Positions 4,633 to 58,141 of a stretch of 64,000 nucleotides of DNA are shown here, one piece after another (position 1 is the first letter of the stretch; every line of letters starts with the position of its first letter). The notes beneath the pieces are model-generated. The model was not told where the DNA came from and searched no databases. It saw nothing but the letters and a program-made list of their open reading frames with translations. A program made the position numbers and the translations under genes. This stretch comes from Cymbomonas tetramitiformis (Eukaryota; Chlorophyta; Pyramimonadophyceae; Pyramimonadales; Pyramimonadaceae). The stretch is taken from contig LGRX02035207.1 of NCBI GenBank assembly GCA_001247695.2, positions 1 to 64,000 of the forward strand. Reading direction: 5' to 3'.

Positions 4633-5059
4633 TGTGCTAGGAGGCAAGCACAAGAGCAAGAAAAACGGCTAAGTATAAAACGCAGAAGTACTCAGTACGG
4701 AGTACAGTAGGACCGATCAGAATGATGTTGATGTGAGGTGACTAGACTGTTGTACGGAGTACTCAGTACAGTTGAGTTATGGAAAGAGTTCCTGAATGTA
4801 TAAGAACTCTAAGAGTAACCCGTTTCGGAGAGATGAACTGAACTGAAAAGTAAGACATAAAAGTAAAGAGCCGTAACTGCTGTATATTGTGTATTGAAAG
4901 CATGCACTGATAGCAAAAGCATAACTATATAGATTTACGAAACCGAAGTCTTGTAGTTGACCAATCGTAAGCATACCTCGTGCGGTCGTTTAATAAGTGT
5001 AGAATAGTATAAGTCCGAAACCGTAAAGAAGAGAAGAAGCCTAGGTGTAGACTCCTACA
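4633..5059 (+). repeat. 5' LTR of gypsy element
   Basis: The 427-bp direct repeat is matched by 18,615-19,041 with about three substitutions. It has canonical TG...CA ends. Near its start it carries short inverted GTACTCAGTAC/GTACGGAGTAC motifs that recur about 60 bp apart and may bind a host factor. Confidence 0.95.
4674..4680 (+). promoter_or_regulatory. TATA-like box in 5' LTR
   Basis: TATAAAA lies 41 bp into the LTR, in the context GGCTAAGTATAAAACG. The same box is in the 3' LTR. It is the best candidate core promoter for the genomic RNA. The start site itself cannot be seen. Confidence 0.45.
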
Positions 5060-5062
5060 AAA

Positions 5063-5080
5063 TGGTAATTAGTTCGTGTT
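5063..5080 (+). other. Putative primer-binding site
   Basis: Three bases after the LTR end the sequence reads TGGTAATTAGTTCGTG. It starts with the TGG expected opposite a tRNA 3' CCA end. I cannot assign the tRNA. Confidence 0.45.
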
Positions 5081-5537
5081 TTCACGTTGCTTCCTTGTCT
5101 TTCTTGCGCAAATTCTGATCAACCCGCCCCGCCTTGTGCGATTAGTTAGAAAGTACTTGCACTACGAAATCGAGAATGCCTGTGCTCTCGCTCTTGTTGC
5201 GCGGTGGTGTGTGGGATTGATGGTTCCAGGTTGCTTGGAGCCGCGTCGGTGTGGAGAGATCTAGCTCGACGACAATCTTTTAAGGTGCGAGCGTTGCCTT
5301 AGTCCTGGCACGCATACACGCATAGCACGCATATCCGTGCTTTTGGACTCGCAGGTGCGGGATTTTGGAATCTTCTCCGTTTTTCGGCAAATCCGACCCT
5401 TCGCGGCGGAAGCGCTGCGCAAATTTTTCAATTTTGCGTAAGCCTTTGCTGAAATTCGGGGTTGGTTCGGGATTTCCCCCACCTTTAATTTGGCCTTCTA
5501 GTCCCCCCTATTCGGGAATCTCCGCGCTTCGGCCGGT

Positions 5538-8318
5538 GTGCTTACTTGTGCTCGCGCGCAAGTGGCGTGTTCCTGGGATCGGGTGCTGGTTGCCACACCA
5601 ACCGCTTTTCGGTTGAATTGGATCTCACGCATAGCACGCATACTATGCCCATGTATTCGGATGAAGAGGAATGCCTCGGTCGGTCGGGCCGGCGTGGGGG
5701 GGGGTCGGGCCGGCGCCGCCCCCGGCTCAGCCGTGGGGTCCGGTCGGTCGGGGTCTCGCGCTGCAGGCCTGTCGGTTGGCCCAGGCTCTGGGGAGTTCTG
5801 GGGCGCAGCTGGCGGGTCAGACAGCCGGGATTGGCGCTCCCGTGAGAGGGGGGGGGGAGTGCGGCGCGCGCTTGCGCGCCAATACGGCGGTGAGGCCCTC
5901 GAGGTTACACCGGCGCGCACGCCCCGGAGAGCCCCTCCAGGGTTGTCTGGTGGGCCCCCCAGGGCCTCGCCACCAAAAGCCCCTTCACCAGCGAGGGTCA
6001 GTGGAGCTGAGCCAGTGTCCGAGCTCGCATTGAGCTCGGCGCTACGGCAGCCGGCGCGCCGGAAGCGTGCGTCGCCCGAGGCTCCGGCACCGCCGGCAGC
6101 AGGCGCCGGCTCCGGGTCGGACTCGGACCGCTCTGCTAAGGGGTTGAACCCCTCGGCAGCTCCCTTCTCCCCACTCCCTGCGTCCAGCAGGAGTGCGAGT
6201 AGTAGGGTCGTCCGTCAGGAACCGACGTCGGGACCGGCAGCATCCTCCCTCTCTTCCCTCGTGGGGAGCGAGCAAGGGAATCTCATCAGTGCCCCGGGGC
6301 GCTTTGAGGTTTACCGAGCCAGTGACTGGAGTCCCCCGGCAGAAGGGGAGTCTGATGATGTCCGGCGCCCAGAGCAGCTAGACGTCGTCCAGTCACGGGG
6401 GCGCGAGTCTCGCATCCAGCCCAATCCGGCTTGGCGAGGAGAGCGACGTCAATCCATGCTCGCATTGGCCCTCCGTCAATGGAGCACCTGGGCGCTGGAT
6501 TCAGCGCAACGACGTGCGAGAGTCTCCCCGCCATCTCGTCAGCGCGCAACAGCGCGGCTTGCGTGGGTCGCATGGAGGGCCAGGACGGACCAGTCAGCGC
6601 ATCAACGCGAGCTCCGGCGCCTGGCATTCCAAGCGTGGAATGACGTCACCCAACAGGTCGCCCAACTTCAGGGCCTGTTTGACAAAGGCAGTCGGCGCCG
6701 GGTCGAGTCCACTTTCGCAGCATGGCGCCAGCATGTCGTCCAGACACAGGGTCTGTGGCGCAGAGGCAGACGTCAAGCTGGAGCAGTCTTCATGGCATGG
6801 CACCAGCAGACGATGCTCGCCAAGGAGAGGAGCACCTGGTGGGTTGGAGCCCGGAGACACCGGATGACCCAGATGGGCAGGAGGTGTCTTCGCGAGTGGC
6901 GCCGGCTCCCCAGGACGACCCCAGTCAGCTCGGACTCGTCCCAGGGAACGAGTGTCCGCCGTCCGGTAAGGAAGGCGGGAACCTCATCCGGTGTCAGCTC
7001 TTGCTCGGATTCCGACCAGGAGTCTATGTGGCAGGACATCCGTCGAGGCCTAAAGCGCCTGGGGAAGGACCACCCGCTGTCAGGGCTAATGTGGTTCCAG
7101 CTCAAGGACTATGGGCTCTCCGAGGACGGCGCTTATCGCCTGGAGATCCACCAGCAATCAGTCTCCGAGTCCAGGGTGTTGATGCAGCAAAAGCGCGAGG
7201 ACCCTCACAACTCCCTTGAGAGGTGTAGATTCTCTGTCTTTGCCATCAACGCCGGCAGACCAGGGGAGCTGGTACGCCAAGGGGCGGACCTCCAGGAGGT
7301 AAGGAGAGCGGTCGTCGCGGCCGTCAGAATGAGCGGCCGCACCCGGAAGTCGCACAGGGGTCTTAGGAAGTCAGGTGCAGCACCTCCGAGTTCCGCAGCC
7401 CCCGGTGGGAACTGGTCGAACCGGTTTGCTCCCCTCTCGTCCTCATCGGAGGAAGAGCATCCTGCGGAACGTCCGAGGCCCAGGACTCAGGCGCCTAAGC
7501 CGAGCGGCCCCAGTCGCCCGGTGCCTCGCACCCGGAAGCCCAGTCGAGCGCCATCGGTCCCGCACCCCGGTCCGACTTCCTCAGGGAACACGTCGTCGTC
7601 CCCGGAGTCCACTTCGAGCAGGAACAGTCAGGACCTGCAAGAGCTGAAGGAAGCCTGGCAGAAGGAGTCGCAAGCTCGGGAGGCAGCTGCCGAGGCTCGC
7701 CTGGAACAGCTGTCTCGGCAACTCCAAGAGAGTCAAAGAGCTGCCGAGGAGCGCAGGATCTCCGATCAGCGCGCTGCCGAGGAACGCAGGGTCTCCGAGC
7801 GACGCGCTGTCGAAGAGCGCTGGGCTGCAGACCGGCTGGCCGCAGAAGCCCGGGAGACTGCCCGGCAGTTGGCTGTCGACGAGAGCGTCGCTCAGCAGGT
7901 AGCCGCCGAGGAGCGGCGAGCAGCAGCCGAGGCCCAGCTGGAGGAGAGGCTGCAGGCGGTCATAGAGTCACAAGTCCAAAGGCTCGCCCTGGTTCAGGCC
8001 TCGCCCCCAGGGCCCGTGGAGTCAGACGCTCGGGGGCCCTCAGCAGCAGCGTCGAGTCCGGTTCAGGAGACGCCCATCTCCCGAGAGGGACATGAGCTGG
8101 TAGAGCCGACTTCCGTCGGCACCTGTGACGTCGAGAACCGGGACGTTCAAAGCCCTCCGGAGGAGTCGCGCGCGGACGTGACAGCGTCTCCACCGCACTC
8201 ATGGGACTTTATTTCCCTTCCTATACAGGTCTGCGACGCCCTCCGGAAGCACGTGGTCGGTCGGGTATGCCACCTCGGGGATCGATGCCCAGCGCCTGTT
8301 TTACGACGCTGCTCGTAG
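5538..8318 (+). CDS. Extra upstream ORF of gypsy element: Trp-repeat and coiled-coil protein, 926 aa
   Basis: This long frame sits where most gypsy elements have only a leader. The first 300 residues are Arg/Ser/Pro-rich and probably disordered. Residues about 305-460 hold a run of motifs spaced roughly 25-35 residues apart (LAWVAWR, LAFQAWND, STFAAWRQ, AVFMAWHQ, RCLREWRR), much like the AFxxW units of Sfi1-type centrin-binding repeats. A compact region follows around WFQLKDYGLSEDG. Residues about 690-810 form an Arg/Glu/Ala-rich coiled coil with repeats of AAEERR. No catalytic motif is visible. The first ATG is at 5,538; a second in-frame ATG near 5,661 is also possible. The frame is the same as gag, but a stop and about 370 bp separate them. 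A pyrimidine-rich acceptor-like site ending CCTATACAG near 8,228 hints at splicing. Role unknown; it could be a Gag extension or a transport protein. Confidence 0.6.
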   Translation: MLTCARAQVACSWDRVLVATPTAFRLNWISRIARILCPCIRMKRNASVGRAGVGGGRAGAAPGSAVGSGRSGSRAAGLSVGPGSGEFWGAAGGSDSRDWRSRERGGGVRRALARQYGGEALEVTPARTPRRAPPGLSGGPPRASPPKAPSPARVSGAEPVSELALSSALRQPARRKRASPEAPAPPAAGAGSGSDSDRSAKGLNPSAAPFSPLPASSRSASSRVVRQEPTSGPAASSLSSLVGSEQGNLISAPGRFEVYRASDWSPPAEGESDDVRRPEQLDVVQSRGRESRIQPNPAWRGERRQSMLALALRQWSTWALDSAQRRARVSPPSRQRATARLAWVAWRARTDQSAHQRELRRLAFQAWNDVTQQVAQLQGLFDKGSRRRVESTFAAWRQHVVQTQGLWRRGRRQAGAVFMAWHQQTMLAKERSTWWVGARRHRMTQMGRRCLREWRRLPRTTPVSSDSSQGTSVRRPVRKAGTSSGVSSCSDSDQESMWQDIRRGLKRLGKDHPLSGLMWFQLKDYGLSEDGAYRLEIHQQSVSESRVLMQQKREDPHNSLERCRFSVFAINAGRPGELVRQGADLQEVRRAVVAAVRMSGRTRKSHRGLRKSGAAPPSSAAPGGNWSNRFAPLSSSSEEEHPAERPRPRTQAPKPSGPSRPVPRTRKPSRAPSVPHPGPTSSGNTSSSPESTSSRNSQDLQELKEAWQKESQAREAAAEARLEQLSRQLQESQRAAEERRISDQRAAEERRVSERRAVEERWAADRLAAEARETARQLAVDESVAQQVAAEERRAAAEAQLEERLQAVIESQVQRLALVQASPPGPVESDARGPSAAASSPVQETPISREGHELVEPTSVGTCDVENRDVQSPPEESRADVTASPPHSWDFISLPIQVCDALRKHVVGRVCHLGDRCPAPVLRRCS

Positions 8319-8687
8319 GTATCGCACCCTTGGTCAGGTCGCCGGGTGCTTACACCCTTCCAACCAGATCAGGCAGTGCCTGAAGACAAAGTTCTCGGAC
8401 GAGGACAGGGTCCTCGGGGCCCAGGTGGTTCACAGTCTCACGACGGCCTTGGCGTCCGTCGCAGAGAGCTGCGCTCGCTGTGGGTGCGGGCACGAGGAGA
8501 GCCCGGTGCGTATGTGGGCGTGTCGGGCGAGCGCTAAGAGAAGTGTGGTGGCGTTCATGAAAAAGGTGTACCTGCCGGTGTGTGGGTTTTGCGCCGCGGA
8601 CGTGTGGCCCGGTGCTTTCGACCACTTTCCGGCTGTGATGCCACCTCCGATTCCTAAGGCGGCAGACACACCGGGAGACGGGGGGGG
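8229..8687 (+). CDS. Cys-rich open segment between the upstream ORF and gag
   Basis: In the frame +1 to the upstream ORF, sequence is open from about 8,229, just after an acceptor-like CCTATACAG, and reads like protein: LFYDAARRYRTLGQVAGC, then CARCGCGHEE, a run with WACRASAKRS, then LPVCGFCAADVWPG. The paired C-x2-C motifs suggest a zinc-binding fold. It overlaps the start of gag in another frame. It may be an exon joined to gag or to the upstream ORF by splicing or frameshifting. No family recognised. Confidence 0.4.
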
Positions 8688-9956
8688 ATGGTCCCTCAAC
8701 TGGAGCACTCGGAGCCAAACGAGCTTTCGGAGATGCCCGGTGCCAGCAGTCATGGTGGTCCTGGTGGCTCGGGGAGCGGTGACCCTGGAGGGCCGGGAGG
8801 TCCGGGGAGTCCGGACGAGGACCCTGGCGGCGATGGCGAAGACGGGGATGGCGACAGCCAGTTCACCTTCTCGTCTTCCTCTCGTTACAGGGAGCCCCGG
8901 AGCCATTACAGTCGTAAGGACGAGCAGCACGCTCTCAAGGAGGCCACCAGAGCCATGGAGAAGGCGGTGGACAAATACCACACAGAGGTGGAGGGGTCGT
9001 CCCACGTCTTTGGTCGGCTCCTCCGATTTGTTCGGCAGGTCAGGGAGGTTCGGGAGCTGGAGCCGGTGCGCTACGCCATGGAGATGGCGCGTCTGGGACC
9101 ACTAGAGAGCGGGGGTGAGGAGAAGGTGTTGTCGGACCACTCCCTGCTGTCAGACGTGGCCAGACACTGCTTCGGCAAACTCAGCTCCGAGTACCGCGAG
9201 CTTTCTTCGGTGTTGACGGAGGCTCGGGAAGGTAAGAACCTCACCCTGGACGTCATAGTGGTTCCCTTGGCGCAGCTGGTGATGCCCGACAAGGGGGAAA
9301 TGGCGTCGATCGGTCCGTTCCTGCGTCGCGTGCGTCAAAGTCAGGACATACAGACTCGCACGGTCCGCGAGTTCTGGGACGGGGTGCACCTTGCTCACGA
9401 CATCGTGAGCATGCTGGCTGCCCACGAGCTCACCTCTCCGGTGCCGGAAGAGGAGCTGCTGGAGATATTCCTTACAGGATTGATACCGGAGATAAGGAGG
9501 AAGGTCTTCCTTATAGCCGAGAGGAAAGGCGCTTCGGTCCTGACTCTGAGCCGGACGGCCAGTAAAGGCCGCCACGAACTCCTGACTTGGGCCATAGAGG
9601 CTGAGCGGGAGTTGCGGCAGAGCCAGGATAAGACGAGCCGCTCGGTCCAGCTGCTGGCCCACGTAGATGTCTCGGAGGAGCTGCTAGCCATGGCGACATC
9701 CGCTGGCGCTCCGACACCCACAGGGCAACGACTCGGCTCCCCAGAGTACGAGGGCTGCCGTCTGTGCAAAAGCATGGACCATTATGCCCGCGACTGTCCG
9801 CAGGCGAGCCAGCGCCCGAAGGAGTGGGCCAAGTGCCTCCTGGAGGACACCCTGGCGTTAATAGGGGACGAGTCGGTGGAGGAAGCTTTGGCTGCCATCG
9901 GTTTGGATTTTGTCCAGGAGGACGCTCCCCAGCCCGGGGCGTCCTCCCCGCAGTAA
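8688..9956 (+). CDS. gag: Gag capsid/nucleocapsid polyprotein of gypsy element, 422 aa
   Basis: The N-terminus is Gly/Ser/Pro/Asp-rich. A helical region that fits a Ty3/gypsy capsid follows, with VREFWDGVHLAHDIVSMLA and EELLEIFLTGLIPEIRRKV (residues about 225-280). Near residues 355-370 is a classic zinc knuckle, C-x2-C-x4-H-x4-C (CRLCKSMDHYARDC), which binds RNA during packaging. The last 193 bp overlap the pol frame, which lies at -1 relative to gag, so Gag-Pol is probably made by -1 frameshifting, or pol is translated separately. I took the ATG at 8,688, though the frame could be entered earlier by splicing; another acceptor-like stretch ends CTCGTTACAG near 8,890. Confidence 0.85.
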   Translation: MVPQLEHSEPNELSEMPGASSHGGPGGSGSGDPGGPGGPGSPDEDPGGDGEDGDGDSQFTFSSSSRYREPRSHYSRKDEQHALKEATRAMEKAVDKYHTEVEGSSHVFGRLLRFVRQVREVRELEPVRYAMEMARLGPLESGGEEKVLSDHSLLSDVARHCFGKLSSEYRELSSVLTEAREGKNLTLDVIVVPLAQLVMPDKGEMASIGPFLRRVRQSQDIQTRTVREFWDGVHLAHDIVSMLAAHELTSPVPEEELLEIFLTGLIPEIRRKVFLIAERKGASVLTLSRTASKGRHELLTWAIEAERELRQSQDKTSRSVQLLAHVDVSEELLAMATSAGAPTPTGQRLGSPEYEGCRLCKSMDHYARDCPQASQRPKEWAKCLLEDTLALIGDESVEEALAAIGLDFVQEDAPQPGASSPQ

Positions 9957-12900
9957 AGGGCGCGGGCCCCGTCCCTGCGGGGTCAGGGGGACAAAAGGGC
10001 CCCGCGCCGGCGTCCACAGCGATGCAGGTGCTGCATGATAGGTGGAGAAGGTGTGGGAGACACCTTAGTGGCAGCGCCAGGCGCCACCTCAAGAGCCAGA
10101 GTCGAGTCGAGAGGTATGAGCAGGAAGGTTTAGACATGCTAGCTGCCACCCGCACGGAAAGCCCAGAGCCTCCTGAGCGGGAACAGGTCGAGCAGCGCGT
10201 CCAAAGAGAGCAGGCAAACTTCTGGAAGTCCGCCAGAACCCCAGCGACCGCCTCGGTTCCGCGTCCCGAGGAGCCGTGGGAGCTGCTCTGTTGGATCACC
10301 GGTGCGGACACCCGGGGTAAAAACCGGTCGAGCCACACAGTTGAGCCACGGGCAGTCTACCACCAGCACCTGGAGAACCAGGGGTCGGATGTTGCGAGAG
10401 TTCGCGGGCACTGGAAGTTCAGAGCTCAGCGTTTACCCCCCAGAGTTAGGAAAGCCTTTCAGGCCCAGCAGCCAAGTGCTCGCCTCCGTTCCGCCATCAG
10501 GGCGCTAGAAAGGTATCTAAAGCTGGAAGAGTCAGAGGTCCGGTCGGTCAAGGCCCTTGCGCTTTGGAGGGCAGGGCAAAGGCGGATGCGCCAGAAGCTT
10601 GGACCCACGACTAGTAAGCCCCAGTTGAATCGAGAAGAGTTAGATAAGCGCTTGAAGCGGCTCGTCAGGGTGCGCGAGTTCAATCGCCGACGCAAAGCCA
10701 TCTTGGATCAGGAGTTCGGACGGTTTGTTCGCGTTGCCAAACCCAAGCCTGCCGAAGGAGAAGAACTCTCACCACCAGAGAGAACTTCAAAGCCCAGTCG
10801 GCCGTGGTTGACCCGAAGCAGGGCTCGCCAGGCTTTGGGCCCGAAACGCAGGCCATGGCTGACTCCTGAAGACAAGGCGCTTCGAACCTCTCGATTGCAG
10901 CGCAGGTACGAGTTAGAGGGTAGGGACCCGGCTTCTACCTCAACAGAACGCCATGCGGACTTCCACGCCTTCGTAAAGGAGGAGTTGGAAAGGGAGAATA
11001 GGGAACTTCAGCAAGACAATGAGCTGATGCACCGGGACGAGCAAGTCAGAAAGCACATAGCGGCTAAACTGGCTGCAGCGTCGGTCCAAGTCGCGGTGTC
11101 CCCCCCAGACTTCCCGGAGCGCAGTGCAGTCCAGAAAGCAGTCGCCATCGGCCTGCTAGCGGACGCATGTACTTACTGCCTCCCGGACTGTGACTCCGAC
11201 GCAGAAACGTCAGTCACCCGCCTGGACTGCATAATGCAGGACGGCGATATCAGTCCGAGCTGGTGTGAGTCCCTGGCAGCGGTGTCCTCGATGGGAGCGC
11301 GCCCGAGGAGTTTCGACAGGCGCAGTCGCACACCGACGTTGTTGCTGTTTTGGGCCTGGATTGCGGGCGTCAGAGTCAAGGTGTTAGTGGATTCGGGAGC
11401 ATCCACCAATATCATCGCAAAGAGTACACTGCAGAGGCTCTCCGGCGTCAAGCCGGTGCGCCACGAGCAGGCCATGCGGGTTCGAGTGGCTGACGGCACC
11501 ACATATGATGCTAATTCCTGCATCAGGCCCAAGCTCCTTGCTGAGACGTCGAAGGGGTCTTACGGCCAGCAGGTTGAGCTTCGGGTAATGCCACTCGACC
11601 TCAAAGTGGATGTCATCCTGGGGGGTCCTTGGCTGGCGAACCTTTCCCCGGTTACGCTGGATTATAAGAACTGGGGTTCGGTCCGGTTCACCAAGGGCAG
11701 AGAAGAGGTCGTCATCACCGGCTGTTCGCCGGGGTCACCGGACCCCAGTCGGTCCAAGGACACGGCAATGGCACTGGTACAGGGAGTCCTTTTGAGCCAA
11801 CGTCGGGCTCGCCGGGACCTGCGGACCCTCCGAAACAGAGAGGAGCAGGCTTTCGTCGTCTACCTCGGCCCCGATGGGGCTTTTGGCGCGTTGGCCTGCA
11901 ACAAGGGGGGGGGAGACTCCGACGAAGATTCCCCCAACGATGTTGTAGCAGGCCTGGCGTCAGAACCCTCCTCCGGGTCCGAGGATGGTGAAGTCAGCGT
12001 GCGTCCCAGCGCAGCGGTGCCGGACGGAGCTGAGGAGTCTGAGGGGCCGGGAGGGTTGGTCTCGGACAGTTCCGAGTCCGGCTACAGTGACGTGGAAGGA
12101 GCATGTCATTTGCAGAGAGTAGGGGCGGTGGTCGAGGATATTAGGCCACAGGGATTTGCGAGCACGGTCGACGAGGCCGGGGATCACCCTGACCCTCTCA
12201 GCTTTTTCGCTAGCAAACAGGAGGCGAACGGAGCATTTGCGTTGCTTCCGCCAGCGGTGCGTAGGCAGGCGATAGAGGATCACGCGGCCGGGAAGCCACC
12301 CACCTGGCACGCGCAGGCAGCCGCGGCGCTCCAGCAGGGCCGGGGTCTGGTCGCGGAGCGACGACCCCGAGCACGGCGTAAGCGAGTGCGTTGGCGTGAC
12401 CAGGTCGCAGCAGTCGGTCAGCCTGGTGCTGAAAGTGGCCCTTCCACCGAGCAGCCACCGGGACCAAAAGTCCCCACTGTCCCGAGTCCTCAGAGTCAGA
12501 AGTCGCGAGCCTCGGCACCAGTCCCGCCGCCAGCTCCGCAGACCACAGACCCGCCGGTACCGGCCGCCCCGCCAGGTACTACCTCGCCGCCAGCCCCACA
12601 GACTGCTCAGGCCTCCCCGGAACCGCCGGAGGACGAGATAGACGAGACGGTGTCGCCGGAAATCTGGCAGCAGCTTAGGGATCTGGAAAAGGAGTTCGCA
12701 GATGTCATTTGCACAGAGCTGCCGGAATCAGTCCAGTCAAGGGAATTCAAGTCCGGCGTCCGGCTCAGGCCAGATTGGAATGGGAACGCCTTGCACCGGC
12801 GAGGGTACAAGCTGTCGCAGGAGGAGTTGCGGCAACTCCGGCAACAGCTAGATGAGCTCTTAGCCAAAGGGTACATACGACCCTCGGCCTCTCCGTGGGG

Positions 12901-15900
12901 CTGCCCTGTGCTGATGGTCCCCAAGCCGAGTAATCCCAAGGAGTTGCGTCTAGTCATTGACTACAGACAGATCAATGAGATCACAGTCAAGGACAAGTAC
13001 CCCCTCCCGGATGTCCAGAGTCTCCTAGATGATCTACAAGGGGCTACCGTCTTCTCTACGATGGATGCCCTTTGGGGATTTTGGCAGGTCCCTATGAAAG
13101 CAGAGGACGTGGAGAAAACCGCAATGACTACGCACTTTGGAGCGTACGAGTGGTTGGTCATGCCTATGGGATTGTCAAACTCCCCAAGTACCTGGCAAAG
13201 GATGATGCAACAGTACCTCGGGCACCTACCCTTTTGCAGAGTATTTGTAGATGACATCATGATTTTCTCGGCTGAGGTTCCGGGTAAGAGCGCCCATGAG
13301 GTACACCTCGACCACCTCCGCCAGGTCCTGGAGGCATGCCGAAAGAATTCAGTCTACCTCAAAAAGTCGAAAGTCAAATTGTGCAAGCGATCAGTCCGGT
13401 TCCTAGGGCATGTGGTGGATCGGGATGGATGTCGTCCACAGCAGGATAAGGTTGCGTCGGTACGCGATTGGCCAGACCTAGAAACTGTCACACACGTGCG
13501 ACAGTTTCTGGGCATGTGTGGCTTCTACCGGAGGTACATCCAGAACTTCGCAGATATCGCGTACCCGTTGACCCGCCTCACCAAATCCGGCGTGGACTGG
13601 ACCTGGGGCGAGAATGAAAAGGCAGCATTTAAACAGCTAAAAACTGCCTTGATCTCCTCCCCAGCCTTGGCCCTACCCGATCAAAAGGGTGCAGCAGACG
13701 GCTCCAGACCCTTTTTTGTGCAGACAGATGCCAGTGGAGTAGCACTAGGGGGTGTACTCATGCAGGATCAGGGACGAGGCTTACAGCCCTTGGCCTTTGA
13801 AAGCCGGCAGTTCTCCAGCGCAGAGCAGAACTATCACGCTGGGGAACGGGAGCTTTGTGCCATCCATCACTGCACCACGGTCACCTGGAGACATTATCTG
13901 ATTTTCACATCATTTAAGCTCATGGGAGACCATAAACCCCTTCAGTGGCTCTTCGCCCCAGCTAGGGAGCTCAGCCGACGTCAGGCTCGCTGGTACGAGG
14001 ACCTGGTAGAGGTAGGAGTCCATCAGATGGAGCACGTGCCAGGGCGCTGTTTAGTAGTACCAGACGCGCAGTCCCGGCGACCAGACTATCAGGAAATGTC
14101 AGCCAGAGAAGGGTTGAAGGAAAAAGGGATTGTGGATCGCGCCACGGATGGGCCCAGAGACTCCGCACCGGCAGGCAAGGGGTCCGAAGAGGACGAGGAT
14201 CCTACCTCTGTCCTCGGGGCAGTGGATTGCACCACCGATGGATCTGATGGACCCGAGTACTCTGAGCCGAAAGGCAAGAGATGCGAAGGGGACGAGGATC
14301 CCACATCTGTCTTAGGCGCCACCTTCGAGTATAGTGATTCCGAGGACGAGTCCTTCCCTCCCACCAGTCCAGCACCGGTCATTGGTGAGCTCACCCATCT
14401 GAATGGGCTCACGTGGGTAGAGTCGCCGGCCCTTTGGCTGGACGCAGCTGCCACCCTAGCAGTAGGCGAGAAATCCTTGAGGGATGCCGAATCGCTAGCA
14501 GTCATGACCAGAGCAGACCGAGCTAGGGAACAGGCCACAGCAGAAGTCCAGAGTCACCCGAAGTTCCCCCACCCTGAGGCCCAGAGTCATCCAAAGGCAG
14601 CCGGAAAGGTACCTGAGCCCGTTAAGCCCCCAGAAAGTAGCTCCCACTACGACCAGGTCGTAGATCGCCAGGACTGGAAGCTGATCAGGGAGCGCTTTGA
14701 GGAGATAGCAGCCCAGTACGGGGTGTTTGACGTTGACGCGTGTTGCGACTCCATGGGCGTTAACCGGCAGGTTGACACCTATTGGACCGATTGCTTGAAG
14801 GAAAAGTGGCGCGGGAAACACGTTTGGTGCAACCCCCCTTACACGAAGGATTCCGACTTGATAGAAAGAATTCTTCGGCATTTCCTTGCTGAGTGGCGCG
14901 CCGATCCGGAAAACACCTCGGCGATGTTCCTTCTGCCAGACTATGACGCCCCCTGGAGACGGTTGATTCACCCCAAGTATGGGCTTCATCCGGTCAAGGT
15001 CTTTGACACGAAGGACGAAAAAGGTCGTCCCAACCACCTCTTCGAGTCCCCTGATGGAGGTCGACCCCCGCTGCGCTGGCCGGTCCTTCTGGTGTGGGCC
15101 CCAGCAGCCAGCAGGGCAAAGCCCCGAGCGCCGCCTGCGCGAAAGGACAGTGAGGCAGAACCCGACGAGCCTTTAGTCACTACAGGGGTTGCGGCAAGGG
15201 CCAGGGCAGCATCAGGCCCACTGAAGGCTGATGAGTTCGTCCGCGCCTTGCAAGCGGAATACGAACGCAGCCAGTACCTCAGCTCGTTGAAGGAGGAACT
15301 GGTCGCAGCCCCACATCAGAGGACAGACACATTTCGCATGGTAGACGACATGATATGGCGAGTGGCAGAAGGGCGGTATCAGCTAGTGCTAGCTCAGGAT
15401 TCCCCCCTCAGAGAGCTGGTGATGCGCGAAGCACACGAGTCCCCAGCAGCAGGGCACACAGGAAGGGATAAGACACTGGACAGAGTATCCCGTCGCTTTT
15501 GGTGGCCACGCATGAGCAAGGATGTCACCGACTGGTGCAAATCCTGCGTTGTGTGCCAACAGACCCGGCCACGCAACGGGTATCCAGACGGTCAGCTTAA
15601 CCCCCTGCAAGTCCCAGTAAGACTGTGGCAAGTGGTTAGTATCGACTTCGTCACTGGGCTGCCCCGCACAGAGCGAGGGTACGACGCGTTTGCTACCTTC
15701 ACGGACAAGTTGTCCAAGATGGTGCACGTAGTTCCCATGCTTTACGCTGACAGCTCAGCTGCACAGATCGCGCGCATGTATTTCGACCAAGTGTGGCGTT
15801 TGCACGGCGCTCCCATGAAGATCGTCTGTGATCGGGACTCCCGCTTCAGGGATGAGATGCATCTCGAGCTACATCGGTTGATGGGAGTCCAGGTTGCCTC

Positions 15901-17893
15901 TACCACGCCGTACCACCCTCAAGGTGATGGGCAGGCAGAGCACACAAACCACACGGTCGAACGCATGTTGCGCGCGTACGTCGACGCCAACCAGCACGAT
16001 TGGGATTTATGGTGTACCCCGGTCGAGTACGCCATTAATGACTCTCGTTCCGCCGTCACGGGATTCACCCCTTTTGAACTGACGTATGGTCACGCTCCGG
16101 CCTCTCAGCTGGACTTCTTCGTGGAGGCAGCACTTGCATCACGGAGAGGCCGAGCTAAGGGGGGGAGGGGCGCAGCAGTAAAAAAGGGTACAGCCCACGA
16201 GACAGCCCGCCAGTTTGTTCGCCAGTTGCAGCTCGCTAGGGAGAAGCTGCTCTTAGCTCAGCAGCAACAGATCGCCCAGTACGACGCGCGTCACAGGTCC
16301 AGGAGTTACGCAGTAGGCGATGAGGTTTGGGTGGATGCCACGCACCTCACTCAGCCGGGCGACCGCGGGTTGCACAAGAAGTTGCTTAAGAAGCGCCTTG
16401 GGCCCCTTCGGGTGCTGGAAGTCTTTCACAGCGACAGGCAGATGGCCCTTCCCGCGAGCGATAGAGGCGCACCGTCGGCCTATAGGTTGCAGACGCCTAA
16501 GCAGTGGAAAGTGCACGATGTGTTTACCGTGGACCGGCTTTCGCCAGTAGAGTCGGGCAGCCGCTTCGTTGAGAGAGCTAAGGAGATTCCCCCTCCTCCG
16601 TTGGACGTCAGCGGGCGCAAGGAAACCCACGTCGAGAGGGTGGAGCGTTCGCGCACGCGCCAGCGCCAGGGCAGGAGGTGGACAGAGTACCTGGTCAAGT
16701 GGACAGGAATGCCCCGCAGTGAGAACGAGTGGAAGACCCGAGAGGATCTGGAGTGGGACGGAGCCGGCAGGCCCGGTGTTCCCAACCGAGCGTTGTTGGA
16801 GTTTGAGAGGATCGAGGCTAAGAGAGTGGAGCGAGAGAAGCTTAGGGTCCGTAAGAGACGCGACGAGTCCGCAGGAGCGGTATGGACCACGCTATCGGAG
16901 GAGCTCAAGGTAGACGGAGCAATGCCATGGGTGCCAGAGGAGAGGTTTGATGAGGAAGTAGGAACTTTCGCGAGAGTATCTGCTCAGAGCACCCTGCCGC
17001 CAGTCAACGGAGCCGCAGCACTTGAGAAGGAGCCAGTCGGCCAGTCTAGGATTCTTGTATTGTTTTGTGGGACCGGGTCAGTCGAGAGGCAGTTCACTAA
17101 GCAATTTCCCAATAGCGAAGTAGTTGCTGTAGACATTCAGCCCAAGTGGGGCCCCACACATTGCGAGGATATCATGCGATGGGACTATCGACAGTTCAGA
17201 CCAGGACACTTCGACGTAGTCTGGGCTAGCCCACCTTGTACAGAGTACAGCCAAGCGAAGACGGTAGGCATCCGAGATTTGCGTGCTGCGGACAGGCGAG
17301 TTCGTAGGACATTGGAGATCATCCGGTACTTGAGGCCCGAAGCATACTTCATTGAGAACCCGAGGGGAAGAGAGCCCCACGGGTTGCACACGCGTCGCTG
17401 CATGAGCAATCTACCAGCTCCGCACCTCGTCACGTACTGCAAATACGGGACCGCATACAGGAAGCCCACGCACATCTGGACCAACGTTCCGTTGCGCACA
17501 CCCTTGCGAGTATGCGATTCCGATACGCCTTGCGAGTTCTTCCGGCAGCACGGTAGGCACGAGAAAGTAGCGCAAGGAGGGCGCGCGATGAGAGCCGGAG
17601 GTGTGTTCGCGAAGGGCATGGGAGCGCGAGAGAATTTGTATGGGATTCCGTCAGCACTGTTAAAACAGCTTTTCCACAACCTGACCCTACATGAAGAGGT
17701 GCATGCGTTCCTGTCTGAACTGCTTGTCAGGGAGGATCTGAGCGAGATGAGCGTTTTAGTCCAGTCAGCTGTTGTTGAGAGTGACCCGCCCGAGTTTGAG
17801 CCAGAACCGATAGCGTTAGCGGGAGTGCGAGCGGAGGTGACGATCATACCAGAGGGCGGATGGGAATCTGACGCGAGTGGTCTTAGCGATTGA
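9764..17893 (+). CDS. pol: Pol polyprotein: PR-RT-RNaseH-Dam-integrase-chromodomain-C5 MTase, 2,709 aa
   Basis: One uninterrupted frame, approximate residues. 90-450: basic Arg-rich region of unknown role. 540-550: retropepsin active site VLVDSGAST. 680-960: acidic and Pro-rich linker. 1,000-1,230: reverse transcriptase, with RLVIDYRQIN and catalytic FVDD (codons from 13,244). 1,315-1,440: RNase H, starting FFVQTDASG. 1,625-1,785: Dam-type adenine methyltransferase with NPPY. 1,890-2,110: integrase with an HHCC zinc finger (ending CKSCVVCQQ) and a D,D,E core (SIDFVTGLP, CDRDSRF, GQAEHTNH). 2,290-2,350: chromodomain (YLVKWTGMPRSENEW). 2,430-2,640: cytosine-C5 methyltransferase. Domains through the chromodomain match chromoviruses; the two methyltransferases are additions. 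All visible catalytic residues are intact. It overlaps gag by 193 bp in the -1 frame. The ATG at 9,764 is just the first in frame; synthesis as Gag-Pol is more likely. Confidence 0.93.
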   Translation: MQKHGPLCPRLSAGEPAPEGVGQVPPGGHPGVNRGRVGGGSFGCHRFGFCPGGRSPARGVLPAVKGAGPVPAGSGGQKGPAPASTAMQVLHDRWRRCGRHLSGSARRHLKSQSRVERYEQEGLDMLAATRTESPEPPEREQVEQRVQREQANFWKSARTPATASVPRPEEPWELLCWITGADTRGKNRSSHTVEPRAVYHQHLENQGSDVARVRGHWKFRAQRLPPRVRKAFQAQQPSARLRSAIRALERYLKLEESEVRSVKALALWRAGQRRMRQKLGPTTSKPQLNREELDKRLKRLVRVREFNRRRKAILDQEFGRFVRVAKPKPAEGEELSPPERTSKPSRPWLTRSRARQALGPKRRPWLTPEDKALRTSRLQRRYELEGRDPASTSTERHADFHAFVKEELERENRELQQDNELMHRDEQVRKHIAAKLAAASVQVAVSPPDFPERSAVQKAVAIGLLADACTYCLPDCDSDAETSVTRLDCIMQDGDISPSWCESLAAVSSMGARPRSFDRRSRTPTLLLFWAWIAGVRVKVLVDSGASTNIIAKSTLQRLSGVKPVRHEQAMRVRVADGTTYDANSCIRPKLLAETSKGSYGQQVELRVMPLDLKVDVILGGPWLANLSPVTLDYKNWGSVRFTKGREEVVITGCSPGSPDPSRSKDTAMALVQGVLLSQRRARRDLRTLRNREEQAFVVYLGPDGAFGALACNKGGGDSDEDSPNDVVAGLASEPSSGSEDGEVSVRPSAAVPDGAEESEGPGGLVSDSSESGYSDVEGACHLQRVGAVVEDIRPQGFASTVDEAGDHPDPLSFFASKQEANGAFALLPPAVRRQAIEDHAAGKPPTWHAQAAAALQQGRGLVAERRPRARRKRVRWRDQVAAVGQPGAESGPSTEQPPGPKVPTVPSPQSQKSRASAPVPPPAPQTTDPPVPAAPPGTTSPPAPQTAQASPEPPEDEIDETVSPEIWQQLRDLEKEFADVICTELPESVQSREFKSGVRLRPDWNGNALHRRGYKLSQEELRQLRQQLDELLAKGYIRPSASPWGCPVLMVPKPSNPKELRLVIDYRQINEITVKDKYPLPDVQSLLDDLQGATVFSTMDALWGFWQVPMKAEDVEKTAMTTHFGAYEWLVMPMGLSNSPSTWQRMMQQYLGHLPFCRVFVDDIMIFSAEVPGKSAHEVHLDHLRQVLEACRKNSVYLKKSKVKLCKRSVRFLGHVVDRDGCRPQQDKVASVRDWPDLETVTHVRQFLGMCGFYRRYIQNFADIAYPLTRLTKSGVDWTWGENEKAAFKQLKTALISSPALALPDQKGAADGSRPFFVQTDASGVALGGVLMQDQGRGLQPLAFESRQFSSAEQNYHAGERELCAIHHCTTVTWRHYLIFTSFKLMGDHKPLQWLFAPARELSRRQARWYEDLVEVGVHQMEHVPGRCLVVPDAQSRRPDYQEMSAREGLKEKGIVDRATDGPRDSAPAGKGSEEDEDPTSVLGAVDCTTDGSDGPEYSEPKGKRCEGDEDPTSVLGATFEYSDSEDESFPPTSPAPVIGELTHLNGLTWVESPALWLDAAATLAVGEKSLRDAESLAVMTRADRAREQATAEVQSHPKFPHPEAQSHPKAAGKVPEPVKPPESSSHYDQVVDRQDWKLIRERFEEIAAQYGVFDVDACCDSMGVNRQVDTYWTDCLKEKWRGKHVWCNPPYTKDSDLIERILRHFLAEWRADPENTSAMFLLPDYDAPWRRLIHPKYGLHPVKVFDTKDEKGRPNHLFESPDGGRPPLRWPVLLVWAPAASRAKPRAPPARKDSEAEPDEPLVTTGVAARARAASGPLKADEFVRALQAEYERSQYLSSLKEELVAAPHQRTDTFRMVDDMIWRVAEGRYQLVLAQDSPLRELVMREAHESPAAGHTGRDKTLDRVSRRFWWPRMSKDVTDWCKSCVVCQQTRPRNGYPDGQLNPLQVPVRLWQVVSIDFVTGLPRTERGYDAFATFTDKLSKMVHVVPMLYADSSAAQIARMYFDQVWRLHGAPMKIVCDRDSRFRDEMHLELHRLMGVQVASTTPYHPQGDGQAEHTNHTVERMLRAYVDANQHDWDLWCTPVEYAINDSRSAVTGFTPFELTYGHAPASQLDFFVEAALASRRGRAKGGRGAAVKKGTAHETARQFVRQLQLAREKLLLAQQQQIAQYDARHRSRSYAVGDEVWVDATHLTQPGDRGLHKKLLKKRLGPLRVLEVFHSDRQMALPASDRGAPSAYRLQTPKQWKVHDVFTVDRLSPVESGSRFVERAKEIPPPPLDVSGRKETHVERVERSRTRQRQGRRWTEYLVKWTGMPRSENEWKTREDLEWDGAGRPGVPNRALLEFERIEAKRVEREKLRVRKRRDESAGAVWTTLSEELKVDGAMPWVPEERFDEEVGTFARVSAQSTLPPVNGAAALEKEPVGQSRILVLFCGTGSVERQFTKQFPNSEVVAVDIQPKWGPTHCEDIMRWDYRQFRPGHFDVVWASPPCTEYSQAKTVGIRDLRAADRRVRRTLEIIRYLRPEAYFIENPRGREPHGLHTRRCMSNLPAPHLVTYCKYGTAYRKPTHIWTNVPLRTPLRVCDSDTPCEFFRQHGRHEKVAQGGRAMRAGGVFAKGMGARENLYGIPSALLKQLFHNLTLHEEVHAFLSELLVREDLSEMSVLVQSAVVESDPPEFEPEPIALAGVRAEVTIIPEGGWESDASGLSD
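14640..15110 (+). other. Dam-like DNA N6-adenine methyltransferase domain inside pol
   Basis: This segment lies between RNase H and integrase. FDVDACCDSMGVNRQ is followed about 30 residues later by HVWCNPPYTKDSDLIERIL, then MFLLPDYDAPW and LRWPVLLVWAP. The NPPY motif (codons 14,831-14,842) is the catalytic motif of amino-methyltransferases, and the order fits the small phage-type Dam family. It would methylate adenine N6 in DNA. DIRS retrotransposons are known to carry a Dam-like domain next to RNase H, so the position is suggestive. Activity and target are unknown. Confidence 0.85.
17030..17700 (+). other. C-terminal cytosine-C5 DNA methyltransferase domain of pol
   Basis: Motifs in order: motif I ILVLFCGTGSVERQF (AdoMet binding), motif II VVAVDIQ, motif IV DVVWASPPCTEYS with the nucleophilic Cys codon at 17,237-17,239, motif VI YFIENPRG (the ENV-type Glu), a motif-VIII-like YCKYGTAYRKPTHIWTN, and a motif-X-like YGIPSALLKQL. 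All residues needed for catalysis appear present. No obvious long target-recognition insert is seen, so it is compact, like phage or bacterial enzymes and unlike DNMT1. It follows the chromodomain by about 75 residues. Confidence 0.85.
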
Positions 17894-17914
17894 GGGCGTT
17901 GGGGAGCGTCGGGA

Positions 17915-18240
17915 AGAGCGGTGGCTCCAGCCTTGGCGAGACCAGGCGGCAGGTGAGAACCTGGGTAATCCATCCGAGAGAGCAGTGGCTCTAGCCTCGG
18001 CACAGCCAGGCAACAGGTGGAAATCTGTATAATCCATTTGAGCAGTGGCTCTGAGCCTTGGTATGACCAAGCGGCAGGTGAGAACCTGGGTAATCTATCC
18101 AAGTGAGCAGTGGCTCTAGCCTCGGCGCGACCAGGCAACAGGTGGAAATCTGTATAATCCATTTCACGAGAGCATTGGCTCCGGACCTGGCACGACCGGG
18201 CAGCAGTTGGAGATCTGGGTAAAAGCTCTAGCACTCCGAG
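17915..18240 (+). repeat. About 60-65-bp tandem repeats in the 3' untranslated region of the gypsy element
   Basis: About five imperfect copies, each with GAGCAGTGGCTCTAGCCTCGG-like sequence, a cACCAGGCAACAGGTGG-like core and AATCTGTATAATCCATT. The core recurs singly near 18,500 (ACAACAGGCGGCTGAGACCTGT). It lies between the pol stop and the polypurine tract, and could serve RNA packaging, export or a promoter. Confidence 0.75.
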
Positions 18241-18597
18241 GAGGCGGTGAAGGTTTAAAACCTTTCCTCCGGGCCGGCATCCCGAGAACTGTCAGGTAAT
18301 TGGCAAACCTATTGTCATCCCCTGTAAGTGTGCCGTGTTGGGAGGTTTAAAACCTTGAGCGTGGTAATGGATGTGAAACCTTGAGCCTTGGGGGAGCCTG
18401 GTAGTGCAGATGGCAGACCGGTGAGAGGCCGACCCTTGTGCTTAAGAGGTCGATCTCCTTATTGCGGTGTGTCTTGGGAAGTGTAATGTCATCCCAGACA
18501 ACAGGCGGCTGAGACCTGTATAATCATTCAGAGCAACAGTAGAAGATCTGTATAAAAACTTTACTGGTCCGACGTGGTCAGCGTGGACGTGACCTTC

Positions 18598-18614
18598 CCT
18601 AAGGGGGGGGGAGT
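18598..18614 (+). other. Polypurine tract
   Basis: AAGGGGGGGGAG lies immediately upstream of the 3' LTR, the expected primer for plus-strand DNA synthesis. Confidence 0.85.
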
Positions 18615-19041
18615 TGTGCTAGGAGGCAAGCACAAGAGCAAGAAAAACGGCTAAGTATAAAACGCAAGAGTACTCAGTACGGAGTACAGTAGGACCGATC
18701 AGAATGATGTTGATGTGAGGTGCCTAGACTGTTGTACGGAGTACTCAGTACAGTTGAGTTATGGAAAGAGTTCCTGAATGTATAAGAACTCTAAGAGTAA
18801 CCCGTTTCGGAGAGATGAACTGAACTGAAAAGTAAGACATAAAAGTAAAGAGCCGTAACTGCTGTATATTGTGTATTGAAAGCATGCACTGATAGCAAAA
18901 GCATAACTATATAGATTTACGAAACCGAAGTCTTGTAGTTGACCAATCGTAAGCATACCTCGTGCGGTCGTTTAATAAGTGTAGAATAGTATAAGTCCGA
19001 AACCGTAAAGAAGAGAAGAAGCCTAGGTGTAGACTCCTACA
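18615..19041 (+). repeat. 3' LTR of gypsy element
   Basis: 427 bp, near-identical to 4,633-5,059, followed by the target duplication CATGA. Confidence 0.95.
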
Positions 19042-20086
19042 CATGATAACTATTCATATTACAATTTCACTTCTCGCATACAGTATCCCAGCGGTCGATC
19101 CTCCAGGATGACCAATTTCCTTAAAAAATACGCTTGCGGAAGCCTTCCGCGGATGGAGTTGAGCATCATTTTTGGAAGAATAATGCTCAAAACTGGACCG
19201 CAACATCCAGAAGTTTTGAAGGCGAATAAATACTGTAGCCCATCAAGGACCATTTGCGCATCATCAATTTATTGATATATCGTTTAAATAGCCGCAAATA
19301 ACTTAGGGTTATGGCCATACGTGAGCGGCCTATGACCAAGTAGGAGGGATGGGGCATTTAGGGATCGAAATATACTTAGTATAGGTCTCATTTAAGGTTT
19401 GGGCCGATGCTTGAGGGCAAGAATGCATGCACAAAAGCCACACCATTTCACGATGTAGTGAAAAAAAGGCTCAAAACCACATGATATTTGTCGCATGATA
19501 AAAACATGAAATTCACTTCTCTCGCTTGTTTTCGGTGAAAAAATCATGATCAACTCGTATTTGAAGCTTGCAAACATGTCCATGCATGTGTTTGGTCTGT
19601 ATATACATTCCTAACACACCCACATGCACGGCTTGTGCGCAAAAACAATGTGCAGAGTGTTATTCCACACCCTGAGGTCCACATGTGTGTTTTCTATCAC
19701 TGTGGAACGAATCAAATCAACAAGGGACGGTATCGATATCTTGATATTATGATATATCGATATATCGAAAATCGATAACATATCAATCGATAATATTTTT
19801 AGCGTTATCGAAAAATATCATATAAATCGATAACATTTTCAGAGTTATTCATATCAATCGATAACACTTGGGGCACTTATCATATCGATCGATAGTGGTT
19901 TGGAGTTTTTGATATCGATTTATCGATATCGGATTTTTCGCGTCATGTCGATATTCGCCGTAGCTGAATCCCGATAACGCGATATATCGCATATATCGAA
20001 AATATGACCAGGGCAAGGGACGACGGGATATGGTCACATGGATCCCGTGAGTTGGTCGAAACGATCTTGGAATCCTTACTTCCTTA
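19042..20086. other. Gene-free AT-rich stretch between two LTR elements
   Basis: No gene recognised. The minus-strand frame at 19,059-19,253 (starts MVLDGLQYLFAFKTSGCCGP) reads somewhat like protein and may be a remnant of what the gypsy element landed in. The second half is an ATCGAT-rich tract. Confidence 0.4.
19738..20010. repeat. ATCGAT-rich palindromic low-complexity tract
   Basis: Dense overlapping ATCGATA/TATCGAT words with a repeated phrase of the form TATTCATATCAATCGATA. The same phrase occurs in a second tract at 26,823-27,060, so the two are related dispersed repeats and not chance AT-rich sequence. Confidence 0.7.
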
Positions 20087-20344
20087 TACTGGAATATCCT
20101 AGTTCACCAGATATCAGAAACTCCCGAACTGTGTGGATAAAAACTCTTAAGATAAATAAACCCTAAGCTAGATATACCCGGAACGGTCTCGGACGGTTTC
20201 GGAGTCTAGCCTACCTGTGACACAGCGTGTGTCACAGCACGAACCTATAGATCAGTCGGTCAGCAGTCCAGTGTTGGCCTAGGAGTCTGTCATAGGGGCC
20301 TGCACCGGGACTCCCGGTCAGGGCTGACTATACAGATTTCAGCA
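20087..20344 (-). repeat. 3' LTR of older gag-only element
   Basis: 258 bp. It matches 23,431-23,687 and is related to the LTRs at 58,142 and 61,484. It contains the inverted pair GTGACACA...TGTGTCAC. Confidence 0.9.
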
Positions 20345-20665
20345 CACCACCCCAGCACTGTGGGTGGTGACTCTCTATAGGAGAGTCAGATAATGTAAGA
20401 TAAGTCAGGGCAGGAGCCAGGTTGACAGACCTAACTGCCAATCCAACTGTGCAATTCTGAAACACAACTTGGAAACCCTCTAGCTAGCACAGTTGCAGAA
20501 ACCCACGGGCATTGTGCACCCGCTAAACAACTGAAAAGCAACGAGCTAGCAAGCCAGAAGATAACTTGTAGATGTCAAAAGCAAAACCATAAACCAGAAA
20601 AATTGTTGAAGTCACCGGAGTTCCGCACACCACCATGTTGGTGTGCATCCAAAGTGAACAAGAAG

Positions 20666-23286: not shown

Positions 23287-23430
23287 TCCCAGTCGCTTAC
23301 CGCAAACAACTCATACCATAATTCCTAGTTGCACCCAAACGCGCCCGCGCGCACCGCCTCTCCAAGCGGCCGTTTAGCCAATCATGGCCAAATCAGCAAG
23401 TGGAATAAAAGCGTGGATGGGGCCACGACA

Positions 23431-23687
23431 TACTGGAATATCCTAGCTCACCAGATATCAGACACTCCCGAACCGTGTGGATAAAAACTCTTAAGATAAA
23501 TAAACCCTAAGCTAGATATACCTGGAACGGTCTCGGACGGTTTCGGAGTCTAGCCTACCTGTGACACAACGTGTGTCACAACACGAGCAGTCTATAGATC
23601 AGTCAACAGTCCAGTGTTGGCCTAGGAGTCTGTCATAGGGGCAAGCACCGGGACTCCCGGTCAAGGCTGCCTATACAGATTTCAGCA
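23431..23687 (-). repeat. 5' LTR of older gag-only element
   Basis: 257 bp. Just inside it (minus strand) the sequence GTCGTGGCCCCATCCACG is shared with the younger copy and is the candidate primer-binding region; the TGG is offset by about five bases from the LTR end. Confidence 0.9.
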
Positions 23688-24689
23688 CCTTAGATGGAAA
23701 CGACCAATCATACAACATGCGCTTATAAGTGAGTCGAAGATCATTGCGACTATTGGCTACTGCCCCGTGGTTCGGTACTATCTCAAGTACCGAAGCTTAT
23801 CATCATGTAGGCCATGCTATCAGGTTATATGGTCTAAATGGCATCGTAGAAAAATCATTTAGGACCCATTTGATGTATTGTTTATGGTGGTTTCAACGAC
23901 AACCGCCACTTTGCATGTGTAAACATGCCATGCTTTCGAGGGGTGCAATGCCTGAAAATTAATTGTTTTGCTCGGTACTATCTCAAGTACCGAACACGCG
24001 GAGGCCCATTAGGCTTAGTAGGCGGTCATCCCAAGTCTTATACATCGGCATGTTTCTTCATTGGGACCTAATCTAAATGTTTGTTGCACATTATGCCACT
24101 AGAAGGTCAGCATGGCCTCCGCACCTACGCGTGTTAGCTCCACCCATGGGGAAATTCGAATTTCCCCCAAATTTCACGCTTGACTTTTTGGTAAACGGCC
24201 GTATGCCATCGTGCACAATGATCTGAAATCTCAATATATAGTGCACTTCAAGGTCTCCAAAAATCGATATGTATGTATGCTTGAATATTCTATATGTGGG
24301 CAGCCTATATTCGTATCCTCTTGACCTCGCCGTACGATTCTCGCATCCCCACCGTGGCTTCCTTTTAAAACAAAATACACCCTCCAAGTGCAAACTCGAA
24401 CCCAAACTCAAACGCTTGTAACTCCCTCAATTTTGAGAGTTGTCTGAGCTATAATCAAGTAATATATCATGATCATATGTCACACATGACATTTGAAAGA
24501 TCACAGGGCATCTACATGACTCTCGTATGCTTTTTTGGCACGGCATAGCGTTTTCCCGACATAATCAGGGTGCCCCCGACAAAAAAAAATGAAAAAATTG
24601 AAAATCAGATTGGCGCTCACAAATAACGGTAAAAACCCATCATAGGACTCCATTTAGTTCATATGTAACACTCGGCATGCGGAACATGT

Positions 24690-57951: not shown

Positions 57952-58141
57952 GGCCAATGATGCAATGAATCCAAACTCGGTCTCGTGGTGTCATGTGCAT
58001 TGAAAACAATGTAAAACATGTCCTGAAGGGTCACTCGACCGCTGGGGTGGCTTGGAGCCCCATGGATCCGCCGATTTCGAAGGGGGGCTGGGGCAGTATA
58101 TCTCTATGACGGTCCACCCCCCGGAATTGGTGGGACGACAT

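Follow-up and report, generated by a model that had tools for sequence, protein, structure and literature searches.

Dam-type adenine methyltransferases are known in DIRS elements, and cytosine methyltransferases in retrotransposons of algae, as an earlier note on the sequence studied here had stated (PMC5890265; what we take from PMC-numbered papers refers throughout to parts of each text). Among the closest described systems is KnitGypsy-Dnmt3 of Klebsormidium nitens, a Gypsy element with a Dnmt3-related methyltransferase and a Ka/Ks < 0.2 (de Mendoza et al. 2018, PMC5890265). Here we describe a Ty3/gypsy-type long terminal repeat (LTR) retrotransposon of the marine green alga Cymbomonas tetramitiformis whose single Pol frame contains both a Dam-type and a C5 cytosine methyltransferase domain. 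It lies in a stretch of 64,000 nucleotides (the window; contig LGRX02035207.1, positions 1 to 64,000), which is contig C25025 in our numbering of the assembly (851.7 Mb, 25,745 contigs).

Like KnitGypsy-Dnmt3, the window element has a cytosine methyltransferase within a Gypsy Pol frame under purifying selection. Unlike KnitGypsy-Dnmt3, which has a Dnmt3-related enzyme and a DIRS-like repeat arrangement and for which the text cited does not mention Dam, it has a C5 domain of 209 amino acids (aa) nearest to small stand-alone C5 genes, ordinary LTRs, and a Dam domain as well. SymbioDIRS-Dnmt3 and SymbioLINE-Dnmt are also retroelement-borne cytosine methyltransferases of an alga, but they belong to other element classes, with a Dnmt3 in the DIRS type and apparently one kind of methyltransferase each (PMC5890265). 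Two Ectocarpus transposons likewise have DNA methyltransferase or chromatin-reader domains: Sola1-1_Ec32, with ParB and an N4C/N6A methyltransferase gene, is a DNA transposon, and Gypsy-10_Ec32, with a Tudor domain, has a reader without a writer (PMC12477816). The part of PMC9998398 consulted contains nothing on element-borne methyltransferases. Across the PMC full texts searched, a scope that leaves aside subscription papers, preprints, and Repbase entries, we found no element reported to have both methyltransferases and no retroelement with a small phage-like C5; the earlier note, too, knew of no account of both in one DDE-integrase element. Each kind has a precedent of its own, Dam in DIRS elements and Dnmt3 in a Gypsy element.

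Structure of the Element and Its Pol Frame

The element is a young complete copy, with 3 differences per 427 bp between its LTRs and the 5-bp target-site duplication CATGA on both sides. Its features are as follows.

4633-19041, +, complete LTR retrotransposon
4633..5059, +, 5′ LTR, TG...CA (blastn self-comparison and base-by-base check), with target-site duplication CATGA at its left (4628-4632)
5538..8318, +, upstream open frame of the internal region, 926 aa (no Pfam match)
8688..9956, +, gag-like open reading frame (ORF), 422 aa, with a CCHC zinc knuckle (Pfam zf-CCHC 20.9 bits, cut-off 20.8)
9632..17893, +, pol frame, open stop to stop, overlapping the end of gag in the -1 frame relative to it
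11336..11683, +, retropepsin-like protease, DSGAS motif (Pfam Asp_protease_2 29.9 bits, cut-off 24.3)
12731..13483, +, reverse transcriptase (RT), FVDD motif (Pfam RVT_1 105.7 bits)
13604..14113, +, RNase H (Pfam RT_RNaseH 96.4 bits)
14651..15118, +, Dam-type N6-adenine methyltransferase domain, FDVDACCD, NPPY at 14831-14842 (Pfam Dam)
15341..16063, +, H2C2 zinc finger and DDE integrase core (Pfam H2C2 83.1 bits; rve 20.9 bits, below the cut-off of 32.6)
16271..16549, +, SH3-like C-terminal domain of the integrase (Pfam SH3_Tf2-1 22.7 bits, below the cut-off of 30)
16601..16798, +, chromodomain (Pfam Chromo 31.4 bits, cut-off 25.1)
17039..17665, +, small C5 cytosine methyltransferase domain, 209 aa, FCGTG, PPC, ENP
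18601..18614, +, probable polypurine tract, a purine-rich stretch just 5′ of the 3′ LTR
18615..19041, +, 3′ LTR (blastn self-comparison and base-by-base check), followed by target-site duplication CATGA (19042-19046)

The LTR pair, the TG..CA ends, the short target-site duplication, and the order protease-RT-RNase H-integrase by Pfam positions are all Ty3/gypsy traits. No canonical gag-pol slippery site lies in the right phase for such a site. Between pol and the 3′ LTR, positions 17916-18164 hold a tandem pair of ∼125 bp, 90% identical. The chromovirus trait of a chromodomain C-terminal to the integrase is present at aa 2289-2330 (our RT+integrase tree held no named reference chromoviruses), and algal chromodomain Gypsy lineages have been reported outside chromoviruses (PMC12477816).

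The single frame of 2,709 residues at 9764..17893 that the earlier note described is real, as the GTG-started part of a frame of 2,753 codons running stop to stop from 9632 (+); the GTG at 9764 is the ORF finder's choice, and the first in-frame ATG lies at 10022. Among 100 single-base shuffles of the element, none had a frame longer than 388 codons. The motifs FVDD, NPPY, FCGTG, PPC, and ENP stand where that note had placed them, and its reading of retropepsin, RT, RNase H, Dam, HHCC/DDE integrase, chromodomain, and C5 in one frame is borne out by Pfam, PHROGs, catalytic residues, and fold. For the integrase, whose rve score is below the cut-off, the residues D1961, D2023, and E2059 (D-35-E) are present and invariant in 14 out of 14 aligned sequences, window included.

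Both methyltransferase domains could be matched to methyltransferases. The Dam domain passes Pfam PF05869, phage-type Dam, with 34.0 bits against a curated cut-off of 28.1. It has a fold match to a cap adenosine methyltransferase, and a PDB sequence search with this domain gave no match at E 0.1. The window C5 scores 19.1 bits against Pfam DNA_methylase (PF00145), below the cut-off of 22, and the corresponding domains of three relatives lie above it (24.5, 27.8, and 26.2 bits in P0014, P0034, and P0040), one lies below (P0027, 16.4 bits), and two have no PF00145 match listed (P0029 and L131). The window domain matches PHROG 757 (5.1e-17), its predicted model has a pLDDT of 93, and the catalytic Cys of PC, the Glu of EN, and the C5 fold are present; DNMT3 chains are its top fold matches, and bacterial C5 enzymes score 1.5 Z below them. 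By PHROGs, motifs, relatives above the Pfam cut-off, and predicted fold, it is clearly a C5 cytosine methyltransferase domain. The two domains are predicted to methylate DNA at adenine and cytosine, respectively; each is a methyltransferase by profile or fold, and both lie in one DDE-integrase chromodomain element. An artefact or chimeric assembly is rejected by the same domain order in many independent contigs and in the metagenome locus L131.

Copy Integrity and Selection

Loose first-look searches of the 852-Mb assembly gave 7,860 candidates with the C5 probe and 7,257 with the Dam family, numbers that are not copy counts. The best 150 C5 candidates that were scored are all ∼100% identical and without stops; the 150 scored for Dam are all above the cut-off. 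Among 14 control genomes, E. coli alone matched the Dam family search. Three scaffolds with coverage above 10,000x (mode ∼21x) and with chromodomain, RNase H, and cytosine methyltransferase have been reported from the Cymbomonas genome (PMC5741210); the part of that paper cited neither describes these high-copy repeats as one element nor mentions an adenine methyltransferase, and we infer that the scaffolds fit the Dam+C5 element family.

An RT probe listed 40 copies, and for 20 of these, not counting the window, the stretch from Dam to C5 was fetched. In 18 of the 20, Dam is complete and open (it lies outside the fetched stretch in L242 and is partial in L244); the same is true of C5 in 13. 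In the remainder, C5 has an indel without a stop (L235) or an indel with stops (L232 and L248), is cut by the region edge (L246), or lies outside the fetched stretch (L242, L244, and L249, the last of which runs to the end of its contig); the contigs of L242, L244, and L246 have a C5 without stops listed at another or overlapping place.

The earlier note took the near-identical LTRs and the fully open frame as an argument for selection on both domains. That argument does not suffice by itself, because a young copy would be open anyway, and copy youth does account in part for the open frame; the selection itself is seen nonetheless in diverged subfamilies, which we compared because the best 150 C5 hits are near-identical. 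Between the window and five diverged copies of the same genome (L250-L254), the proportion of synonymous differences (pS) is saturated, 0.79-0.89. Numeric dN/dS is mostly undefined for this reason, and we report pS and its nonsynonymous counterpart (pN). Against the sister subfamily L250, Dam has a pN of 0.07 and a pS of 0.86, and C5 0.20 and 0.79; pN is 0.10 for RT, 0.08 for RNase H, 0.04 for integrase, 0.19 for protease, and 0.20-0.37 for linkers. Dam pN is 0.12-0.13 for L251-L253 and 0.18 for L254, the latter over only 60 of 156 codons, and C5 pN is 0.18-0.19 for L251-L254 (one C5 stop each in L253 and L254). Over the same five pairs, pN is 0.10 for RT, 0.04-0.07 for integrase, 0.18-0.19 for protease, 0.10-0.20 for the chromodomain, and 0.20-0.37 for linkers. 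Dam is thus constrained about like RT, and C5 about like protease and chromodomain. In both domains pN is far below the saturated pS, which speaks against a dN/dS near 1.

Protein identity per domain was computed against 17 relatives. Against P0004 (CYMTET_43851), whose C5 domain is identical to one on contig C20275 of the assembly, it is 91% for Dam, 70% for C5, 84% for RT, 95% for integrase, and 39-62% for linkers; against P0010 it is 52%, 52%, 56%, and 68%, with linkers at 13-24%. Dam is 91%, 87%, and 83% identical to three close relatives, with the adjoining linkers on both sides at 39-62%. The short-range case for selection is weaker for C5 (70% versus 58% for the preceding linker), and in P0008 and P0009 Dam falls well under RT (49-51% versus 77-79%). 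Against L131 (46-48% identity), codon positions 1 and 2 differ at 42% and position 3 at 62-67%, both domains alike.

Nor are the catalytic residues missing from most copies. The Cys and Glu of C5 are kept in every one of the 31 rows (out of 35) where neither column is empty, with exact PPC/ENP in 28, and the Dam motif is NPPY in 24 of 37 rows, NPPF in seven, and lost in six. Judged from these sequence comparisons, both domains are under purifying selection.

Relatives and the Origins of the Two Domains

A search with Pol residues 1600-2640 gave 132 homologs. Among the 120 listed, custom domain profiles find Dam in 36, C5 in 34 (some partial), and both in 27. All 24 double carriers included in a quick RT+integrase tree of 94 rows fall within one clade of 27 rows (SH-aLRT 98), which comprises Cymbomonas proteins, proteins of jgi/ena records, and L131, with identity down to 33% over the searched part among the matches listed. 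The other rows of the clade are two with Dam only (P0007 and P0026) and one with neither (P0038, where a decayed C5 at the end was considered and dropped for its score of -3.6 bits). The annotated protein of P0007 (CYMTET_32924) ends early, and its candidate matching locus L251 has a complete C5 in another frame. Outside the clade, P0040, P0041, P0046, and P0048 carry C5 only, and in P0044, which is absent from the tree, Dam lies ahead of the protease.

Several relatives differ in other ways. In P0034 (2,187 aa), the C5 in the usual C-terminal position has decayed (35.6 bits, no PPC) and an intact one is found at the N-terminus, as if the N-terminal copy had replaced the C-terminal one. P0027 (2,192 aa, ena record) carries both Dam and C5 and, in the interval from Dam to integrase, also a PHD finger (41.9 bits). 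In P0045 (1,517 aa, ena record), RNase H and integrase are separated by a SET domain (37.0 bits, cut-off 22.4), possibly a histone methyltransferase inside Pol; a chromodomain is present as well. In L259 (G000:C860:19800-23300), of a sister family, the linker before Dam consists of short units such as EHATCPA/EHATRLP, repeated over a long stretch. L131 (NHEN01000032.1) is a eukaryotic-type retroelement on a metagenome contig filed in a Verrucomicrobiaceae metagenome-assembled genome, probably by misbinning.

The C5 search gave 1,322 matches. Among the 120 listed there are, besides element-like fragments, 18 stand-alone proteins of 206-220 aa with 43-50% identity, which adjoin the element clade in a quick tree and are the nearest C5 sequences outside element-like proteins (the C5 trees held no Dnmt3 sequences). 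The main clade of this tree (133 rows) has 44 rows at support 96: the window, 21 element rows, 21 rows with extensions that we take as element fragments, and the stand-alone-looking P0164. P0040/P0041 and P0046/P0048 lie outside it. In a careful tree of 53 rows, a branch with support 51/12 sets all 25 element C5s apart, and the main 21 group at 69/70; a single capture of C5 is neither shown nor rejected by these trees. The IMG/VR matches listed are more distant C5 relatives, reaching 39% identity to the window C5 and 44% to a stand-alone C5, and viral_contigs, searched with the window C5 alone, gave no relatives. The source of C5 may differ from the previously reported eukaryotic Dnmt3.

DIRS elements have a tyrosine recombinase; the window element has an H2C2/DDE integrase instead. 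The same genome contains four loci of 3.2-3.4 kb (L255-L258) with Dams 35-39% identical to the window Dam, in which, unlike the window element, no DDE integrase, chromodomain, or C5 was seen. Three of them (L256-L258) have Dam behind the RT/RNase H part, as the window element does, and we take these to be DIRS-like from their domain order and a recombinase-like motif; L255 was classed as such from Dam alone. Pfam recognised no recombinase in L256-L258, although L256 and L258 have a recombinase-like frame downstream; the RT of L258 is above the Pfam cut-off and that of L257 below. The retroelement Dams, including those of the window and L255-L258, split from 28 viral Dams at 85/90, and the DIRS-like Dams fall within the gypsy Dams at 94/78; neither of these branches is starred, and the program flagged long branches. 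Derivation of Dam from a DIRS element is suggestive only, but its resemblance to same-genome loci that also have it behind RT/RNase H makes an exchange between the two retroelement classes plausible, though unproven.

Two phage-like contigs have adjacent small Dam and C5 genes (L083:1724-2853 and L084:8741-9846), and four loci have overlapping Dam/C5 frames (L082, L085, L086, and L115), a total of six out of 134 loci scanned in a search-biased set. We do not claim a single capture of such a phage pair, given that the C5s of L082-L086 are far from the element C5s in the quick tree and that the element's two domains are separated by the integrase.

The window also contains two related elements of ∼3.6 kb (20086-23688 and 58135-61738) with terminal direct repeats of ∼260 bp, possibly non-autonomous LTR elements; Pfam gave no match for their ORFs (21550-23286 and 58725-61331, both -). 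Long tandem-repeat arrays lie at 43375-44454, 30794-31572, 33472-33953, and 49646-50204; two ORFs that overlie the first and second of these arrays (43237-44103 and 30725-31366) are likewise without a Pfam match.

Possible Roles of the Two Enzymes

The earlier note suggested that the element may methylate its own DNA to silence itself, protect itself, or recruit chromatin; its account is supported in part, as regards the nature of both domains, their place in one element, and the selection on them. We give about an even chance to the reading that both enzymes would methylate the element's own new cDNA, at adenine and cytosine, before integration. Lying inside Pol, both domains would be carried into the particle along with RT and integrase and be present where cDNA is made. 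Pol, cut by its own protease, might yield an RT-RNase H-Dam unit and an integrase-chromodomain-C5 unit, both in the particle. The Dam unit would act while double-stranded cDNA forms, and the C5 unit on integrase-bound ends, possibly also on chromatin around the insertion, where the chromodomain would dock. The methyl mark might give the cDNA the look of cellular DNA or protect it against nucleases, and would not serve to silence the element. This reading is favored by the position of Dam with RT-RNase H and of C5 with integrase-chromodomain, and also by the purifying selection on both domains, their joint persistence in a clade of diverged elements, the retained catalytic residues, and the abundance of the family. 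The idea of cDNA methylation was put forward by de Mendoza et al. (2018) for SymbioDIRS-Dnmt3, with DNMTs reported to methylate CGs (PMC5890265), and would here be extended from one base to two. More tentatively, the lineage may have built a two-base kit from a Dam shared with DIRS-like elements on the RT-RNase H half and a phage-type C5 on the integrase-chromodomain half, marking each new copy with N6-methyladenine (6mA) and 5-methylcytosine (5mC); if it has spread to thousands of copies, a large share of this alga's methylome may be transposon-written.

It is rather unlikely, in our view, that the marks are instead meant for the insertion site, the integrase-chromodomain-C5 unit writing 5mC (and Dam 6mA) on host chromatin so that copies land in and extend a chosen state. 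In the window element as in relatives, C5 does follow immediately after integrase and chromodomain, and further chromatin domains occur in relatives' Pol (the PHD finger of P0027, the SET domain of P0045, and a sub-threshold Tudor in P0040). But Dam sits with RT-RNase H rather than with integrase, and the intact C5s of P0034 and P0040 are N-terminal, away from it. No CpG footprint is seen either: CpG observed/expected is 0.86 in the element and 0.94 and 0.88 in the flanks, and CpG and short-site counts are neutral as a methylation footprint.

The fold match of Dam to the cap adenosine methyltransferase makes RNA as the substrate a live rival, if a distinctly less probable one: One or both domains would methylate the element's genomic RNA (m6A/m6Am, m5C), affecting its stability, packaging, or translation. 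Slightly less probable again is a defense of the host, in which modification by the enzymes would guard the DNA of both host and element from the nucleases of algal DNA viruses and the element would be tolerated as a protector. Morozov et al. (2019) proposed the general form of this for DAM-/DCM-encoding retrotransposons (PMC6338049), but the many near-identical copies suggest selfish amplification. A structural or nucleic-acid-binding role with catalysis irrelevant would suit the six of 37 rows that lost the Dam motif but is hardly credible beside the Cys and Glu in 31 of 31 C5 rows, NPPY/F in 31 of 37 Dam rows, and the intact second C5 that P0034 has beside its decayed one, as would be expected if C5 activity is needed.

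The question of why retroelements carry methyltransferases becomes testable here, in a sequenced genome with young copies, many of them intact. Related lineages with a lost Dam motif or with one enzyme only exist for comparison, and both marks are readable on native DNA with long reads. The finding points to a Dam module exchanged between gypsy elements and DIRS-like ones, and to a C5 source possibly other than eukaryotic Dnmt3. Hosts silence transposons by DNA methylation; here an old, abundant transposon clade itself keeps, under selection, two unrelated predicted methyltransferases for different bases.
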